The notes beneath the pieces are model-generated. The model made no database searches. It was not told the origin of the DNA and saw only the letters and a program-made list of their open reading frames with translations. The position numbers and the translations under genes were made by a program. A stretch of DNA of 5,575 bases from Acidobacteriota bacterium (GTDB lineage Bacteria; Acidobacteriota; Terriglobia; Terriglobales; Acidobacteriaceae): contig JAJYBT010000240.1 of assembly GCA_021778875.1 (NCBI GenBank), positions 1 through 5,575 on the forward strand. Direction: 5' to 3'. Below, piece after piece: positions 1 through 5,575 of the stretch. How positions within the stretch are numbered: position 1 is the stretch's first letter; each line of letters begins with the position of its first letter.

Positions 1-189
1 CGGCCCCTCTTCCCGGATGTATTGGCCGATTTGGAACTCGCGCAGTTTCTGAATCACGTACGGCCCGATGAAGAGCGCAATCAGCAGCGCCGTGAGCGAG
101 GCAAAGGCCGTGCGAAACGTCAGATAGCGGAAGATGCGGAACGGGTGAAAGAACGGATAGAGCTTTTGATAGAGCAGCCAGTAAAGCAA
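1..189 (-). CDS. mraY: MraY, phospho-MurNAc-pentapeptide transferase (N-terminal 63 codons; 3' end outside window)
   Basis: MraY is the integral membrane enzyme that transfers phospho-MurNAc-pentapeptide from UDP to undecaprenyl phosphate, forming lipid I on the cytoplasmic face of the inner membrane. The 63 visible residues begin MLYWLLYQKLYPFF and contain RYLTFRTAFASLTALLIALF (about residues 21-40) followed by IGPYVIQKLREFQIGQYIREEGP. This matches the start of the family: a short amphipathic N-terminus, the conserved YLTFR box, the first transmembrane helix ending in a GP pair, then the conserved IGQxxRxxGP cytoplasmic loop. The start is a TTG at 189-187. No ATG lies in frame upstream of it before the preceding stop region, the protein begins exactly where homologues begin, and a GGGAGG Shine-Dalgarno sequence precedes it. 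The remaining roughly 300 residues, including the catalytic aspartates, lie beyond base 1. It is preceded by the lactamase gene with a 40-base gap and is presumably co-transcribed with it. Identity is very likely; only completeness cannot be judged. Confidence 0.96.
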   Translation of the reverse strand, partial: MLYWLLYQKLYPFFHPFRIFRYLTFRTAFASLTALLIALFIGPYVIQKLREFQIGQYIREEGP

Positions 190-229: not shown

Positions 230-1141
230 CTACAGGGACGGACGCGAATGCGGCTGTGGATGTGGCCTGGACTGCTTCGCTGCCGACTGGCGCTTCAACT
301 CCGCCGCAAAGGCCCGCTCGCGATCGTCGATATAGCTGCGATAGCCCTCTGGATCGATGAATGCGTTGCGGTCGCCGGCCTTCCAGCGCGCATACTTCTG
401 CTGCAACCCGAAATAGCCGCCGTGAGCACCCAGAAATATATCGCACCGAAGGCCTCTGAGCACCTCAAACTCATGCGCATAGTCCTCGGCAATCCGCGGA
501 TACGCCGTGTTCCCAACCAGCTTGTAACCCGGATTTACATTGGGGCTGCCGACAATGACTACGCGCAGCGTTCTGCCCGCCTCCGGCTCGTCCAGCGTCC
601 AGGTTGTCGTTCCTTTTGTGTGGCCCGCGGTCAGATGGGCGGTCAGAACGGTATCGCCCAGGCGCACCTTGTCGCCATCGTGCAACACGCGGTCCACATG
701 CGTGGGCGGAAACCACATGGACTTGTCCGAGGCGTAGTTGAAATCATTCCTCCCGCCCGACTCCACCACAGGCACATCCGCGTCCATGACGAAATATCGC
801 GCCCCCGTCATGCGCTTGATTTCGGCGCTGCCTGCGCAGTGATCGTAGTGCCCATGGCTGATGAGCAAAATCCTGATGTCGCTGAAGTGGAAGCCCAGTT
901 CCTCCACGCTCTTCTTGATCAGTGGCACGGAAGACTCAAGACTGCTGTTGATGAGGATGTCACCCTGGGGCGTAACGATGAGGTAGGACGCGAGATCCGC
1001 GCTGCCCACGTAATATAGGTTGCCCACAATGCGGAACGGGGGGAACGGCGTGGTCCACGCAGGATCCATCGCCGCCAAAGGCATCGCCAGCAGACAAGCC
1101 GCCACCAGAACCGCGCAACCAACAAATTTCTTCAGCGTCAC
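230..1141 (-). CDS. bla: Subclass B3 metallo-beta-lactamase, exported
   Basis: This 303-residue protein is a predicted zinc-dependent beta-lactamase of subclass B3, acting outside the cytoplasmic membrane. The N-terminus (MTLKK, then hydrophobic residues 6-24 ending PLAA) is a signal peptide. A signal peptidase I site after Ala24 is plausible, but Val13-Ala-Ala-Cys16 also resembles a lipobox. The mature part is the MBL fold. His96-Gly-His98-Tyr-Asp100-His101 corresponds to standard positions 116, 118, 120 and 121; His174 in TAGHTKG to 196; His240 in GAHGGYFGL to 263. All six zinc ligands of canonical B3 enzymes are therefore present. Further B3-type stretches are FSDIRILLISHGHYDH, MDADVPVVESGG and GSPNVNPGYKLVGN, the last with the Ser (199) where B1/B2 enzymes have the Cys221 ligand. 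The C-terminus is a His/Pro/Arg-rich tail from about residue 288. The start is GTG at 1141-1139, overlapping the murF TGA (GTGA), with GGAGGG just upstream. It lies in the dcw cluster between murF and mraY, which is unusual. The family is well supported; substrate range and true physiological role are not shown by sequence. Confidence 0.93.
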   Translation of the reverse strand: MTLKKFVGCAVLVAACLLAMPLAAMDPAWTTPFPPFRIVGNLYYVGSADLASYLIVTPQGDILINSSLESSVPLIKKSVEELGFHFSDIRILLISHGHYDHCAGSAEIKRMTGARYFVMDADVPVVESGGRNDFNYASDKSMWFPPTHVDRVLHDGDKVRLGDTVLTAHLTAGHTKGTTTWTLDEPEAGRTLRVVIVGSPNVNPGYKLVGNTAYPRIAEDYAHEFEVLRGLRCDIFLGAHGGYFGLQQKYARWKAGDRNAFIDPEGYRSYIDDRERAFAAELKRQSAAKQSRPHPQPHSRPSL

Positions 1142-2550
1142 TTTCCCTCCGCAAATGCGGTTTGATCCCTGATTGCTTCGATCGCCCGCTCCAGCCGCAC
1201 GCCGCGCGAGCCCTTCACCAGCACGGCATCGCCTGCACGCAGGTTTTGCTTAAGCCACTGGCCTGCGGCCTCGGCATCCGGCAGAAACAGCGAGGCAACG
1301 CCCCCGGCGCAGGCCGCCGTAGCCAGATGCACCGCATTGCCGCGCACGCCCACCACAATGTCAAGACCGCTGTCGGCGGCGGCCTTGCCGCACGTGACGT
1401 GGAGATCGGGGCCGTGCTCGCCCAGTTCGAGCATCTCGCCCGCCACCAGGATGCGGCGGCGCGCAGGACGTGCAGCCAGGGTGTGAATCATGGAGCGCAG
1501 CGCCTCGGGGTTGGAGTTGTAGCAGTCATTGAGCAGAGTGACGCCGCCAATCTCCATCACCTCGCCGCGCTTGTCGCCGGCCGTCAGCGACTCCAGCGCC
1601 TTGACGGCAGCATCCAGTTCGACTCCCGCCTCGAGGGCCACGGCAAGCCCCGCCATCGCGTTGGATCCGTTGTGCGCGCCAAGCAGGCGCAGCGTGAACG
1701 CGCCCTCGCGCTCCCCGGCCCGATAGCGCAGGTGCAAGCCCGCCAGATCCTCACTCTCCTCGATAATCTGCGGATCGGCGCACGGCCCATTGCCAAAATA
1801 AGCGACCTTGCCGGGAAAGTCGCGGCCAAACTGCGAAACATACGGATCGGAGCAGTTCAGAAAAGCCACGCCGGTTGTGGGCAACGCGGCCACAAGCTCA
1901 AATTTGGCGCGGGCAATTCCGGCCTGACCCTCGGCAAAATTCTCGATGTGCGCCGTGCCGACGTTGGTCACCACGCCCCAGTCCGGCGCGGCAATGCGCG
2001 CCAGCGCGGCAATCTCTCCAGAATGATTCATGCCCATTTCGATGACGGCATACTCGTGCTCCGGTTCTAGGCGCAGAAGTTGCAGCGGCAGCCCGTATGC
2101 ATTGTTCAGGTTGCCCGCGGACTTCAGCACGTTGAACTTCGCACCCAACGCGGCGGCGATTGCTTCCTTGGTCGTCGTTTTGCCTGCCGACCCGGTCACG
2201 GCCACCACGCGCTTGCCCCACTGGCGGCGCACATGCGCAGCCAGCGACTGCAAAGCGATCAGCGTGTCCTCTGCAATCAGCAGCGGCACAGCCAGCGCTG
2301 CGTCCGGCAGGCTGGCCACACGCGCGCGCGACACAACCGCGCCCACCGCGCCGCGTTCCACCGCAGCGGCAACAAAGTCGTGCCCATCCAGTCGCTCGCC
2401 GCGCACCGCAAAGAACAGCTCCCCGGCGGCCACCGTTCGCGAGTCAATGGAGTAGCCCTGCGCCACCAGCGCGCCCGGCTGCGAAATGCTGGCCGGCGCC
2501 TCCAGTACCGCGCCCGCGCCCACAGCCACCTCAGCCAATGTTAGTTTCAT
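1138..2550 (-). CDS. murF: MurF, UDP-MurNAc-tripeptide--D-alanyl-D-alanine ligase
   Basis: MurF is the cytoplasmic ATP-dependent ligase (EC 6.3.2.10) that adds D-Ala-D-Ala to UDP-MurNAc-tripeptide, completing the pentapeptide that MraY uses. At 470 residues it has the usual family length and all three Mur ligase domains. The N-terminal domain has SIDSR (34-38), GELFFAVRG (43-51) and DGHDF (55-59), the MurF uridine-substrate-binding pattern. The central ATPase domain has the P-loop TGSAGKTTTKE (119-129), GNLNNAYGLP (146-155), EMGMNHSGEI (171-180), TNVGTAHIE (195-203) and AKFE with Lys216, the position of the modified lysine in Mur ligases. The C-terminal domain follows GAHNGSNAMA (291-300), with NDCYNSNPEA (341-350), AGEMLELGE (370-378) and the terminal VKGSRGVRLE. 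The start ATG at 2550-2548 overlaps the murE stop as ATGA, and GGAGAG precedes it, so translation is probably coupled to MurE. Its own stop overlaps the lactamase start. No key residue is missing. Confidence 0.98.
   Translation of the reverse strand: MKLTLAEVAVGAGAVLEAPASISQPGALVAQGYSIDSRTVAAGELFFAVRGERLDGHDFVAAAVERGAVGAVVSRARVASLPDAALAVPLLIAEDTLIALQSLAAHVRRQWGKRVVAVTGSAGKTTTKEAIAAALGAKFNVLKSAGNLNNAYGLPLQLLRLEPEHEYAVIEMGMNHSGEIAALARIAAPDWGVVTNVGTAHIENFAEGQAGIARAKFELVAALPTTGVAFLNCSDPYVSQFGRDFPGKVAYFGNGPCADPQIIEESEDLAGLHLRYRAGEREGAFTLRLLGAHNGSNAMAGLAVALEAGVELDAAVKALESLTAGDKRGEVMEIGGVTLLNDCYNSNPEALRSMIHTLAARPARRRILVAGEMLELGEHGPDLHVTCGKAAADSGLDIVVGVRGNAVHLATAACAGGVASLFLPDAEAAGQWLKQNLRAGDAVLVKGSRGVRLERAIEAIRDQTAFAEGK
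1145..1150 (-). promoter_or_regulatory. Shine-Dalgarno site for the B3 lactamase gene, inside the murF 3' end
   Basis: GGAGGG on the minus strand lies within the last codons of murF (Glu-Gly), three bases before the GTG start at 1141. Together with the GTGA stop/start overlap it points to translational coupling of the lactamase to MurF. Confidence 0.65.
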
Positions 2551-4058
2551 CGCTCTCCACCGTATCCCAGTTGCTTGAGCGAGGAAAGCGCAATCTCCGC
2601 ATCGTCAAAAGGAATCGTACGTCCGGCCAGAATCTGCTCCCGCTCGTGACCTTTGCCTGCGATGAGAATCACGTCATGCGGCCTGGCCTCTGCGAGCGCC
2701 AGCCGGATGGCCGCCGCACGATCCGGCTCGATGCTGTACCGAACGCCGCTGGACTTGAGGCCCAGCTCAATTTCAGCCAGAATCGCCATCGGCTCCTCTG
2801 AGCGCGGATTGTCGCTCGTGGCGACAACCAGGTCGCTTCCCTCGCCCGCCGCCTGCCCCATCTTCGGGCGCTTGGTGCGGTCGCGGTCGCCGCCGCAGCC
2901 GAACACGGTAATCACGCGTCCGCCGGATGGCGCAGCCATCTGCCGAGCCAGGGTTGTCAGATTGCGTAGCGCGTCGTCGGTGTGAGCGTAGTCCACAATC
3001 ACGGTGAAAGGCTGGCCCGCGTCCACGGGCTGAAAGCGGCCTGGAACCGGCCTGAGCCGCGGCACATAATCCACGAGATCAGCAAAAGGCACGCCCCGCG
3101 CCTGCGCCGCCGTCAACGCTGCAAGCAGATTGAGGATGTTCACCTCACCAGCCAGGTGCGACGTCACGTGCGCTTGGCCTGCCGGGGTCTCCAATTCCAA
3201 CTCCGCGCCGCCCGGCGTGAGCCGGTAGCTTGCCGCGCGCCAGTCGCCCTGGCCGATTCCGTAGGTACGAATCTCCGCTCCGGCCTTGCGCGCCGCCTCA
3301 GCCAGTCGCGCGCTGTGCGGATCATGCGCATTCAGCACCGCCACGCGCGGCGCCGGGTATACCGTGCCGTCAAACAGCAGGCGCTTGGCCGCGAAGTACT
3401 TTTCCATCGTCTCGTGATAGTCAAGATGGTCGCGGGTCAGGTTTGTAAAGACGGCCACGTCAAAGTCGATGCCCGCCGCGCGGCCCTGGTCGAGCGCATG
3501 GCTCGACACCTCGGTCACCAGCTCGGTGGCTCCGCTTCCCGCGCCCTCTGCCATCAGCTCAAACAGGTCGCGCGACTCAGGCGTGGTGTGCAGCGAACGG
3601 CGCACCTCGCCAGCCACATGATACTCGATGGTGCCCACCAGCACAGTCTTTCGATTCGCCGCGTTCAGCAGCGCCTCGGTCAGGAATGCAGTGGTCGTCT
3701 TGCCGTTGGTGCCGGTGATGCCCGTGGCCGCAAGAGTGCGCTCCGGGTGGCCAAAGAAGGCCGCCGCAGCCTGTGCGAGCGCGCGCCGTCCGTGCTCCAC
3801 TTCAAGCACAGGAACACCGGCTTTGTAGACCACCAGATGATCGAAGGCCTGCGAAGAGTCTGTGATAATGCCCAGCGCGCCTGCTGCTAGGGCCTTGTCA
3901 ATGTATCGGTTGCCGTCGGTCGAGCCGCCCTTCATGGCCACAAACACCGCGCCCGGGCGCACGCGCCGCGAGTCATATTCAACGCCCGTCAGCCGCTGCG
4001 TCGAATCACCGGAAGCACCGACAGACGCCACTTCTGCTATGAGTTCGTTCCACGTCAT
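2547..4058 (-). CDS. murE: MurE, UDP-MurNAc-L-Ala-D-Glu--meso-diaminopimelate ligase
   Basis: MurE adds the third stem-peptide residue to UDP-MurNAc-L-Ala-D-Glu in the cytoplasm. The 503-residue product has the three Mur ligase domains: YDSRRVRPGAVFVAMKG (about 28-44) in the UDP-binding domain; P-loop TGTNGKTTT (115-123), HTTPES (157-162), EVSSHALDQ (183-191), TNLTRDHLDYH (205-215) and the carbamylated Lys225 in the centre; VDYAHTDDAL (355-364), FGCGGDRDRTKR (about 386-397), DNPR (416-419) and GKGHE (468-472) at the C-terminal side. DNPR with GKGHE is the signature of the meso-diaminopimelate-specific type (EC 6.3.2.13), not the lysine type. I chose the ATG at 4058 because MTWNELIAEV is where MurE proteins begin. 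The frame stays open for another 61 codons upstream, but that Arg-rich stretch overlaps the end of ftsI and resembles no MurE. The ribosome binding site is poor (only GAG next to the ATG). It follows ftsI by 55 bases and overlaps murF (ATGA). The Pro usually found in VDYAHTPDAL is Asp361 here. Confidence 0.98.
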   Translation of the reverse strand: MTWNELIAEVASVGASGDSTQRLTGVEYDSRRVRPGAVFVAMKGGSTDGNRYIDKALAAGALGIITDSSQAFDHLVVYKAGVPVLEVEHGRRALAQAAAAFFGHPERTLAATGITGTNGKTTTAFLTEALLNAANRKTVLVGTIEYHVAGEVRRSLHTTPESRDLFELMAEGAGSGATELVTEVSSHALDQGRAAGIDFDVAVFTNLTRDHLDYHETMEKYFAAKRLLFDGTVYPAPRVAVLNAHDPHSARLAEAARKAGAEIRTYGIGQGDWRAASYRLTPGGAELELETPAGQAHVTSHLAGEVNILNLLAALTAAQARGVPFADLVDYVPRLRPVPGRFQPVDAGQPFTVIVDYAHTDDALRNLTTLARQMAAPSGGRVITVFGCGGDRDRTKRPKMGQAAGEGSDLVVATSDNPRSEEPMAILAEIELGLKSSGVRYSIEPDRAAAIRLALAEARPHDVILIAGKGHEREQILAGRTIPFDDAEIALSSLKQLGYGGER

Positions 4059-4113: not shown

Positions 4114-5575
4114 TCACCGCCCGCAGCGCACCACGATCTTCGTTCCCGTCGCAACCTGCGTGCCCGGCGCCGGGGCCTGCTCCCGTGCGGTGCCGTCGCC
4201 ACTGACCTCAACATCGAGACCCGCTGCGGCTGCCGCCTCAATCACCTTGCGCACCGACAGGCCCACAAGTGAAGGAACCGTCAGCCTTTTGCCGTCGCCG
4301 ATGGTCACCTGCGTGACAGCCTTTTGCGCAGGCGTCTGCCCCTGCATTGCGACTGCGGGCGCCGGGTTTGCCAACGCTGCTTCCCGTGCGGCGCCCGGCT
4401 TCTTGCCTGGCTTGGCCACGGACTCTGCCGAAACTGGCGAGGATTGGTCGGTAGTAAAAGATTGGGCCGGAGCGGTGCGCAGCGGGTCGTCCGCCGGCAG
4501 ATCGTTGACCGCCGAGTAGAGCGCGTTGATATCTTCCTGGTCTACCCCGGCGTCGTCTTCAGACGTCGTCTCATGCGTCTTTGACGGCGCATGCGGAGGC
4601 TGCACGTCAATGTCGTGCGGAACGCCAAGGTATTCCAGCACCTGCTGCGCCACCTCTGCAAACACAGGCGCTGAGACCGTGGTGCCGTAGTAGTTTCCCT
4701 TGGGCGAATCGATCACCACGGCCACAGCAATCACAGGATTGTTCACTGGCGCAATGCCGGCAAACGATGCAATGTGCACCGTCTTCGAGTAGCGATGCGT
4801 GACCGGGTCAATCTTCTGCGCGGTGCCCGTCTTTCCGCCGGATGAGTAACCATTGAGTTGCGCCGGCTTCCCCGTGCCGTACAGCACCACGCCTTCCATC
4901 ATCTTGCGCATCTCGGCGGCGGTCATCGTCGAAATCACGCGATGCGCCCCCGCAGGCAGCGGATTGGGCAGGTCTTCTCCGGGCCTGAAGGGCTCAGCCT
5001 TCAATGCAGGTGAGAGCTGCCCGTCTGTTGCGCGGTCCAACTGCCCAGGCATCAGCACGCGCGGCGGCAAGTACACCCCGCCATTGGCGATTGTGGAAAC
5101 CATGGAGACCAGTTGCAGCGGCGTGACGCCCACCTCCTGCCCAATGGCAAGGGATCCGATCGACGATCCGTTCCATTTGCTCGTAGGCCGCAACAGGCCG
5201 CGCGTCTCGCCCGGCAACTCCATGCCTGTGCGGCTGCCAAAGCCAAAGTCGCGGATGTATTGATAGAAGCGGTCCTGGCCCACCTTCAGCGCCAGCTTCA
5301 CCGCCGCCACATCGCTTGACCGCGCCAGCGCCGTGGCCACCGTCACCGTCCCCAGCCCGCGGTCGCTCTTGTCGTCGTGGATGACGCGGCCGGCCAGCGT
5401 AATCTGCCCGCCCTGGCAATCAATCATGTCTTCGGGCTTGGCCAAATGCTGATCGAGCGCCGCCGAGTAGGTGACCAGCTTGAACACTGAGCCAGGCTCA
5501 TACACGTCGCTCACCGCGTGATTCCGCAACAGCGCTGATGTGGTGTGACGAAAATCGTTGGGGTTGAATGCCGGC
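4114..5575 (-). CDS. ftsI: FtsI-type class B penicillin-binding protein with C-terminal PASTA domain (5' end outside window)
   Basis: This is the D,D-transpeptidase that cross-links septal peptidoglycan in the FtsW-FtsI division machinery. It is anchored in the inner membrane and active in the periplasm. The frame is open from the window edge, so 486 residues are visible (first full codon at 5574-5572); the N-terminal membrane anchor and dimerisation domain are missing. The transpeptidase domain holds YEPGSVFK with the nucleophilic Ser at visible residue 29 and Lys32 (SxxK, codon 5490-5488); Ser-Ser-Asp at 86-88 in ALARSSDVAAVKLAL, where Ser-x-Asn is usual; and GGKTGTAQK with KTG at 248-250. 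The domain ends near visible residue 325 (VFAEVAQQVLEYLGV). A hydrophilic linker of about 100 residues follows, rich in Pro, Ala, Asp and Glu, then one PASTA domain from about 431 to 486 (VPSLVGLSVRKVIEAA, ending TKIVVRCGR). Position before murE identifies it as the dcw-encoded division PBP and not the elongation PBP2. The first in-frame initiation-like codon in the window (TTG at 5529) is internal and is not the start. Confidence 0.95.
   Translation of the reverse strand, partial: PAFNPNDFRHTTSALLRNHAVSDVYEPGSVFKLVTYSAALDQHLAKPEDMIDCQGGQITLAGRVIHDDKSDRGLGTVTVATALARSSDVAAVKLALKVGQDRFYQYIRDFGFGSRTGMELPGETRGLLRPTSKWNGSSIGSLAIGQEVGVTPLQLVSMVSTIANGGVYLPPRVLMPGQLDRATDGQLSPALKAEPFRPGEDLPNPLPAGAHRVISTMTAAEMRKMMEGVVLYGTGKPAQLNGYSSGGKTGTAQKIDPVTHRYSKTVHIASFAGIAPVNNPVIAVAVVIDSPKGNYYGTTVSAPVFAEVAQQVLEYLGVPHDIDVQPPHAPSKTHETTSEDDAGVDQEDINALYSAVNDLPADDPLRTAPAQSFTTDQSSPVSAESVAKPGKKPGAAREAALANPAPAVAMQGQTPAQKAVTQVTIGDGKRLTVPSLVGLSVRKVIEAAAAAGLDVEVSGDGTAREQAPAPGTQVATGTKIVVRCGR

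Follow-up and report, generated by a model that had tools for sequence, protein, structure and literature searches.

A FEZ-1-like subclass B3 metallo-beta-lactamase gene behind murF in the dcw operon of an Acidobacteriaceae lineage

A gene for a subclass B3 metallo-beta-lactamase (termed MBL hereafter) lies between murF and mraY in a 5,575-nucleotide stretch of acidobacterial DNA, which was analysed over its whole length and is referred to as the window, and the same place directly behind murF is shared by at least 38 of 398 genomes sampled from the family. The explanation that we hold to be rather probable is that an exported, FEZ-1-like B3 resistance enzyme was captured by a cell wall operon with which it is likely co-expressed, through one insertion that was followed by losses. 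According to this explanation, the enzyme would be exported, carry two zinc ions and hydrolyse beta-lactams in the periplasm, it would be translated together with MurF via the overlapping start and stop codons, and it would have entered the slot once, been inherited vertically and been lost repeatedly as a dispensable protective gene. Judged by its sequence, the enzyme itself is an ordinary, new member of the known subclass B3. The new part is its inherited place in the dcw operon, a variant for which the open literature searched, where subscription papers are thinly covered, yielded no account of a B3 gene located in dcw or beside murF.

All genes identified in the window are located on the reverse strand in the order ftsI-murE-murF-[MBL]-mraY. 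The MBL gene (230..1141) encodes 303 amino acids from a GTG start, including the zinc ligands and a hydrophobic N-terminus. It is preceded by murF (1138..2550, 470 amino acids; TIGR01143, 388 bits, cut-off 288.6), murE (2547..4055; TIGR01085, 481 bits, cut-off 257) and, in the FtsI position, the C-terminal part of a class B PBP (4114..5574), in which Pfam detected a Transpeptidase domain (231.8 bits) and one PASTA domain (41 bits). For this PBP, the SpoVD model gave the best score, below the SpoVD cut-off, and the single PASTA domain is C-terminal. The MBL gene is followed by the start of mraY (1..189, first 63 codons, TTG start), whose product is 97% identical over 63 residues to the MraY of another locus of the comparison (L001), while the short piece alone gave no Pfam match. 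The end of murE overlaps the start of murF by 4 bp, and likewise the GTG of MBL (1141-1139) and the TGA of murF (1140-1138) share the 4 bp GTGA (1138..1141); the stop codon of MBL is separated from the mraY start by 40 nt. Sharing its orientation with murE, murF and mraY and lying close to its neighbours, the MBL gene has the position of a dcw operon member. A consensus scan of positions 1-1400 detected no sigma-70-like promoter and three terminator-like sites, all inside murF and none at the MBL junctions. The overlap with murF suggests a predicted co-production of MBL with the wall enzymes, and constitutive intrinsic resistance through such predicted co-expression is plausible.

In comparison with the canonical dcw cluster (murE-murF-mraY-murD-ftsW-murG), the order murE-murF-[MBL]-mraY-murD-ftsW is retained in 25 loci, with the B3 MBL added after murF as a single additional gene. 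A preliminary description of this DNA had placed the gene between murF and mraY, which holds for the window and for 24 of the 38 family genomes, where mraY follows on from MBL, but the constant partner is murF. The same description had regarded the base composition as similar to that of the neighbours and the gene as free of bordering mobile elements. The former is true of GC3 (0.75 against 0.74-0.77) but not of total GC, which is lower in MBL (0.60) than in the neighbours (0.64-0.66); as for the latter, Pfam and NCBIfam models revealed no mobile-element gene among the genes identified in the window.

The assignment to subclass B3 is based on model scores, relatives of solved structure and the active site. 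MBL scored 332.5 bits on the curated B3 model NF033105 (cut-off 240), which is matched by all 44 dcw members at E <= 1e-71, a value that by extrapolation from the score of the window MBL lies near the cut-off. The HARLDQ_not_B3 model NF000405 gave 221 bits, under its cut-off of 350, which leaves MBL outside that group, and the HARLDQ-type Arg and Gln at the ligand positions are absent, H98 and H101 both being His. On the FEZ family model NF000216 the score was 357.3 bits against a cut-off of 600, so that FEZ is, as far as the models tell, the nearest named family, of which MBL is not a member by the NF000216 rule. Among solved relatives, two FEZ-1 chains ranked best (352 and 348 bits), followed by GOB-18 (206). 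The AlphaFold model of MBL (mean pLDDT 88.4) is predicted to adopt the B3 fold: its best PDB matches are B3 enzymes, with FEZ-1 (5w90) as the best fold match at 1.4 A rmsd.

FEZ-1 from Legionella (Fluoribacter) gormanii shares 59% identity with MBL (152 of 256 aligned residues) and the same six ligands, which form the HHH/DHH pattern of H96, H98 and H174 together with D100, H101 and H240, just as the preliminary description had read them. Across the 43 other dcw rows, H96 is conserved in 42 and the remaining five positions show no variation, while all six ligands are kept in the 22 non-dcw rows. Moreover, S199, N203 and Y206 of MBL match the FEZ-1 loop, with S199 present in 40 and Y206 in 41 of the 43 dcw rows. 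In contrast, the FEZ-1 disulfide (Cys256-Cys290; PMC5531557) has no complete counterpart, since C233 of MBL aligns with the first Cys and Tyr267 with the second; Tyr267 is invariant in a 41-row alignment of relatives. GOB-18 and LRA-12 belong to the same subclass and are 37-39% identical to MBL in fold alignments; they differ by a Gln at the first ligand, where MBL has H96. One dcw MBL (L005, 2296-3210) also carries Gln at this position, inside a clade of His enzymes.

The N-terminus of MBL consists of two Lys followed by a hydrophobic stretch and is likely a Sec signal peptide, by which the enzyme would reach the periplasm. A strong hydrophobic stretch was found at the chosen N-terminus in 42 of the 44 loci carrying both murF and MBL; two N-termini (L028 and L049) are twin-arginine-like, and the others look Sec-type. 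Lactamase activity over a wide range of beta-lactams has been measured for FEZ-1 and other enzymes of subclass B3 (PMC5531557, PMC2422870). A promiscuous hydrolase of the MBL fold that acts mainly on something other than a beta-lactam or wall material, such as a lactone or phosphate ester, has a precedent in two soil MBL-fold proteins, one of them from an Acidobacteria-affiliated insert, which according to PMC6584368 had phytase activity and raised beta-lactam MICs. Such an identity seems most improbable for the present protein, which scores above the cut-off of the curated B3 model and below that of HARLDQ_not_B3, and whose closest solved relative, FEZ-1, is a measured lactamase.

A contig scan with the MBL protein returned 14 loci, each labelled as Acidobacteria or Acidobacteriota or with the name of a family or genus belonging to them. 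Among 396 evenly drawn genomes of the phylum, 99 contained an MBL match (E <= 1e-20); murF was sought in 80 of these, the 19 with weak matches being left out, and was found in 76, with MBL behind it in two. Within the family, 171 of 398 evenly drawn genomes contained a match at E <= 1e-40, and the 38 with MBL directly behind murF represent a lower bound because murF was examined in only part of the 171. Absences of MBL are provisional, as the searches scored no more than the top few candidates of each genome and MAGs are numerous in the samples. In four of the 38 genomes the contig ends 0-4.7 kb past MBL without mraY, and murF and MBL are on the same strand in all 44 loci, the window included. 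The survey of murF-mraY intervals that had been proposed at the outset thus found this location of MBL in many genomes and not in a single strain.

A recent cassette or a contamination was considered and rejected, in view of the arrangement on long contigs (6.0 Mb in G602, 6.8 Mb in G579, 1.7 Mb in G685 and 1.1 Mb in G490), the GC3 like that of the neighbours and the agreement of the trees described below. Carriage on plasmids was rejected as well, as the 22 plasmid records with a match contained distant relatives only, the best at 42% identity. With respect to the literature, the genome with the most copies in a survey of B3 genes was that of an uncultured acidobacterium, as reported in PMC7381538. 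In addition, a B3 gene from a soil fosmid, with an acidobacterial relative at 70%, gave E. coli a higher MIC for one cephalosporin, with no such effect for carbapenems, and groups with GOB-1, according to PMC9243250.

The lineage that carries the arrangement was delimited by the 59 best MurF rows (each at least 613 bits, 65-90% identity), and 57 of these clade genomes were examined, G472 and G594 being left out. MBL is located behind murF in 35 of them and is absent from that place in 21, while the sequence of one (G633) ends too early; the 35 together with G508, G734 and G693 (truncated murF) make up the 38. The 21 genomes fall into several states. Nine yielded no B3 match at the E <= 1e-40 threshold, a result qualified by the incompleteness of MAGs; in two (G004 and G708), a copy of the dcw type, which the tree puts within the dcw clade, resides at another locus; two (G584 and G559) have a B3 gene of the other, non-dcw group, located elsewhere; and in eight, mraY stands directly behind murF and a B3 match was found elsewhere. 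No remnant of MBL behind murF was detected by tblastn in 10 loci of genomes without MBL. Outside the clade, the B3-bearing family genomes whose murF was checked carry the gene mostly at other places. The place behind murF is therefore not required, given its vacancy in 21 of 57 clade genomes and the persistence of the two relocated copies.

The phylogenies of MBL and MurF were compared. In a tree of 71 proteins (43 dcw proteins, 24 others and four solved enzymes), the dcw proteins, including the relocated copies L053 and L054, constitute one group (90/88, below the star threshold), and the other 22 family proteins constitute a second group (85/85). FEZ-1 sits on a long branch apart from the acidobacterial rows sampled for the tree, a position of weak support (84/66); a derivation of FEZ-1 from the dcw clade, considered as a candidate, is unsupported by this placement. 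In the MurF tree of 75 rows, 44 of which have the MBL gene, all 44 lie within one clade of 66 rows (100/99), and the presence of MBL changes 11 times, at least seven of the changes being forced by starred branches; an earlier tree of 61 rows, with fewer genomes without MBL, required four changes only. Path distances in the MBL and MurF trees are correlated over 42 loci (r = 0.75), a value that none of 2000 shuffles reached, the highest being 0.51.

Taken as a single MBL group set against these changes along the MurF tree, the data read best as one insertion into the murF-mraY slot, which appears to have happened in the ancestor of one Acidobacteriaceae lineage, with vertical descent and repeated loss; re-insertions behind murF may have occurred alongside loss. 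The MBL gene is under purifying selection as estimated by dN/dS, which amounts to 0.07-0.23 in 12 MBL pairs, a thirteenth being excluded as too similar, and to 0.03-0.11 in 10 MurF pairs. The earlier reading of the gene as one for a B3-type protein and as a long-standing resident is supported, as are the sharing of its place among many genomes and the concordance of the trees.

An ordinary B3 lactamase whose place in dcw is a neutral accident, at a junction that tolerates insertions and gives the gene some expression with no link to wall growth, is an alternative that we judge unlikely, though of more weight than any other rival discussed here. The junction does accept cargo, as other genes occupy it in relatives, and the place of MBL may thus be accidental. 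In 26 loci without MBL where murF is followed by mraY, the gap measures 71-305 nt in 20 and 539-1161 nt in six. A close relative (G720, L096, 3969-4867), which is one of the nine clade genomes without a B3 match, harbours in the slot a toxin-antitoxin-like pair, made up of an antitoxin-like gene of the Xre/MbcA/ParS type and a gene with a RES domain, and three genomes outside the clade (G338, G361 and G226; L088, L089 and L090) have there an ORF rich in Lys and Ala, about 215-230 codons long, one of which was scanned against Pfam with no match above the cut-off. Further ORFs (PqqD and Band_7) lie between MBL and mraY in L024 and L032. An accident would also agree with the repeated loss of MBL, the two copies that persist elsewhere and the other locations of the gene in most B3-bearing genomes outside the clade. 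Against it stand the co-orientation of murF and MBL in 44 of 44 loci and the availability, in 28 of the 44, of a start codon that would produce the 4-bp overlap seen in the window.

The nearest MBL start is located no more than 15 nt from the murF stop in 42 of the 44 loci; starts were chosen at the overlap where available and otherwise nearest to the murF stop, a rule that favours small gaps, and the overlap counts carry no chance control. A neutral accident is likewise at odds with the genomes in which the dcw cluster is apparently broken behind MBL, 10 of the 38, where MBL remains next to murF and the 3.4-10 kb behind MBL are free of mraY. In nine of these, mraY was found on another contig, and in the tenth (G005) it was not found. 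The 10 cases are not independent, since several of these genomes may descend from an ancestor in which the cluster broke once. One such locus (L021) contains, further past MBL, genes for a glycerol-3-phosphate acyltransferase and a glycerol-3-phosphate dehydrogenase. Together, the overlapping codons and the retention of MBL at murF despite the break modestly favour a functional place.

It was also proposed in the preliminary description that the B3 fold might have a housekeeping role from which B3 lactamases were recruited, such as the periplasmic hydrolysis of an amide or lactam derived from the wall; lactamase activity would then be a secondary property. The location among essential peptidoglycan genes, the purifying selection and a few clade-specific residues (positions 167, 172, 178 and 192) would fit such a role, which is nevertheless quite improbable on the present evidence: the compared active-site residues are nearly identical in dcw and non-dcw proteins, nine clade members gave no B3 match at the threshold above, incomplete MAGs being a caveat, and FEZ-1 lies outside the acidobacterial rows, albeit at the support and branch length given. 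The apparent inheritance of the gene across many species, with repeated loss, argues against an essential wall role, and the relocated copies, together with relatives that hold the gene elsewhere, further disfavour a required wall function. As to an ancestral wall linkage, which was likewise rejected, the neighbours of the 24 B3 genes located outside dcw (22 and the two relocated copies, in stretches without murF or mraY) were clustered; each cluster covers at most 10 of the 24, and inspection by eye recognised no wall gene among the clusters listed.

Returning to the captured resistance enzyme, it is possible, if somewhat short of an even chance, that the beta-lactamase forms a standing component of the wall operon, in which the overlap with murF would couple its dose to growth. 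Resistance would on this proposed reading be tied to wall synthesis, and the amount of enzyme would follow growth without any inducer or regulator. AmpR-like sensing is the comparison case for the setting of beta-lactam resistance. If the coupling is true, intrinsic resistance would be set without such sensing, by an enzyme built into the operon of the pathway that the drugs target. Meanwhile, the lineage offers a natural series for comparing the effect of place, with the gene in the operon, elsewhere, lost, or its slot otherwise filled, and, if the reading is true, FEZ-1-like B3 genes would be placed as old vertical residents of the Acidobacteriaceae.
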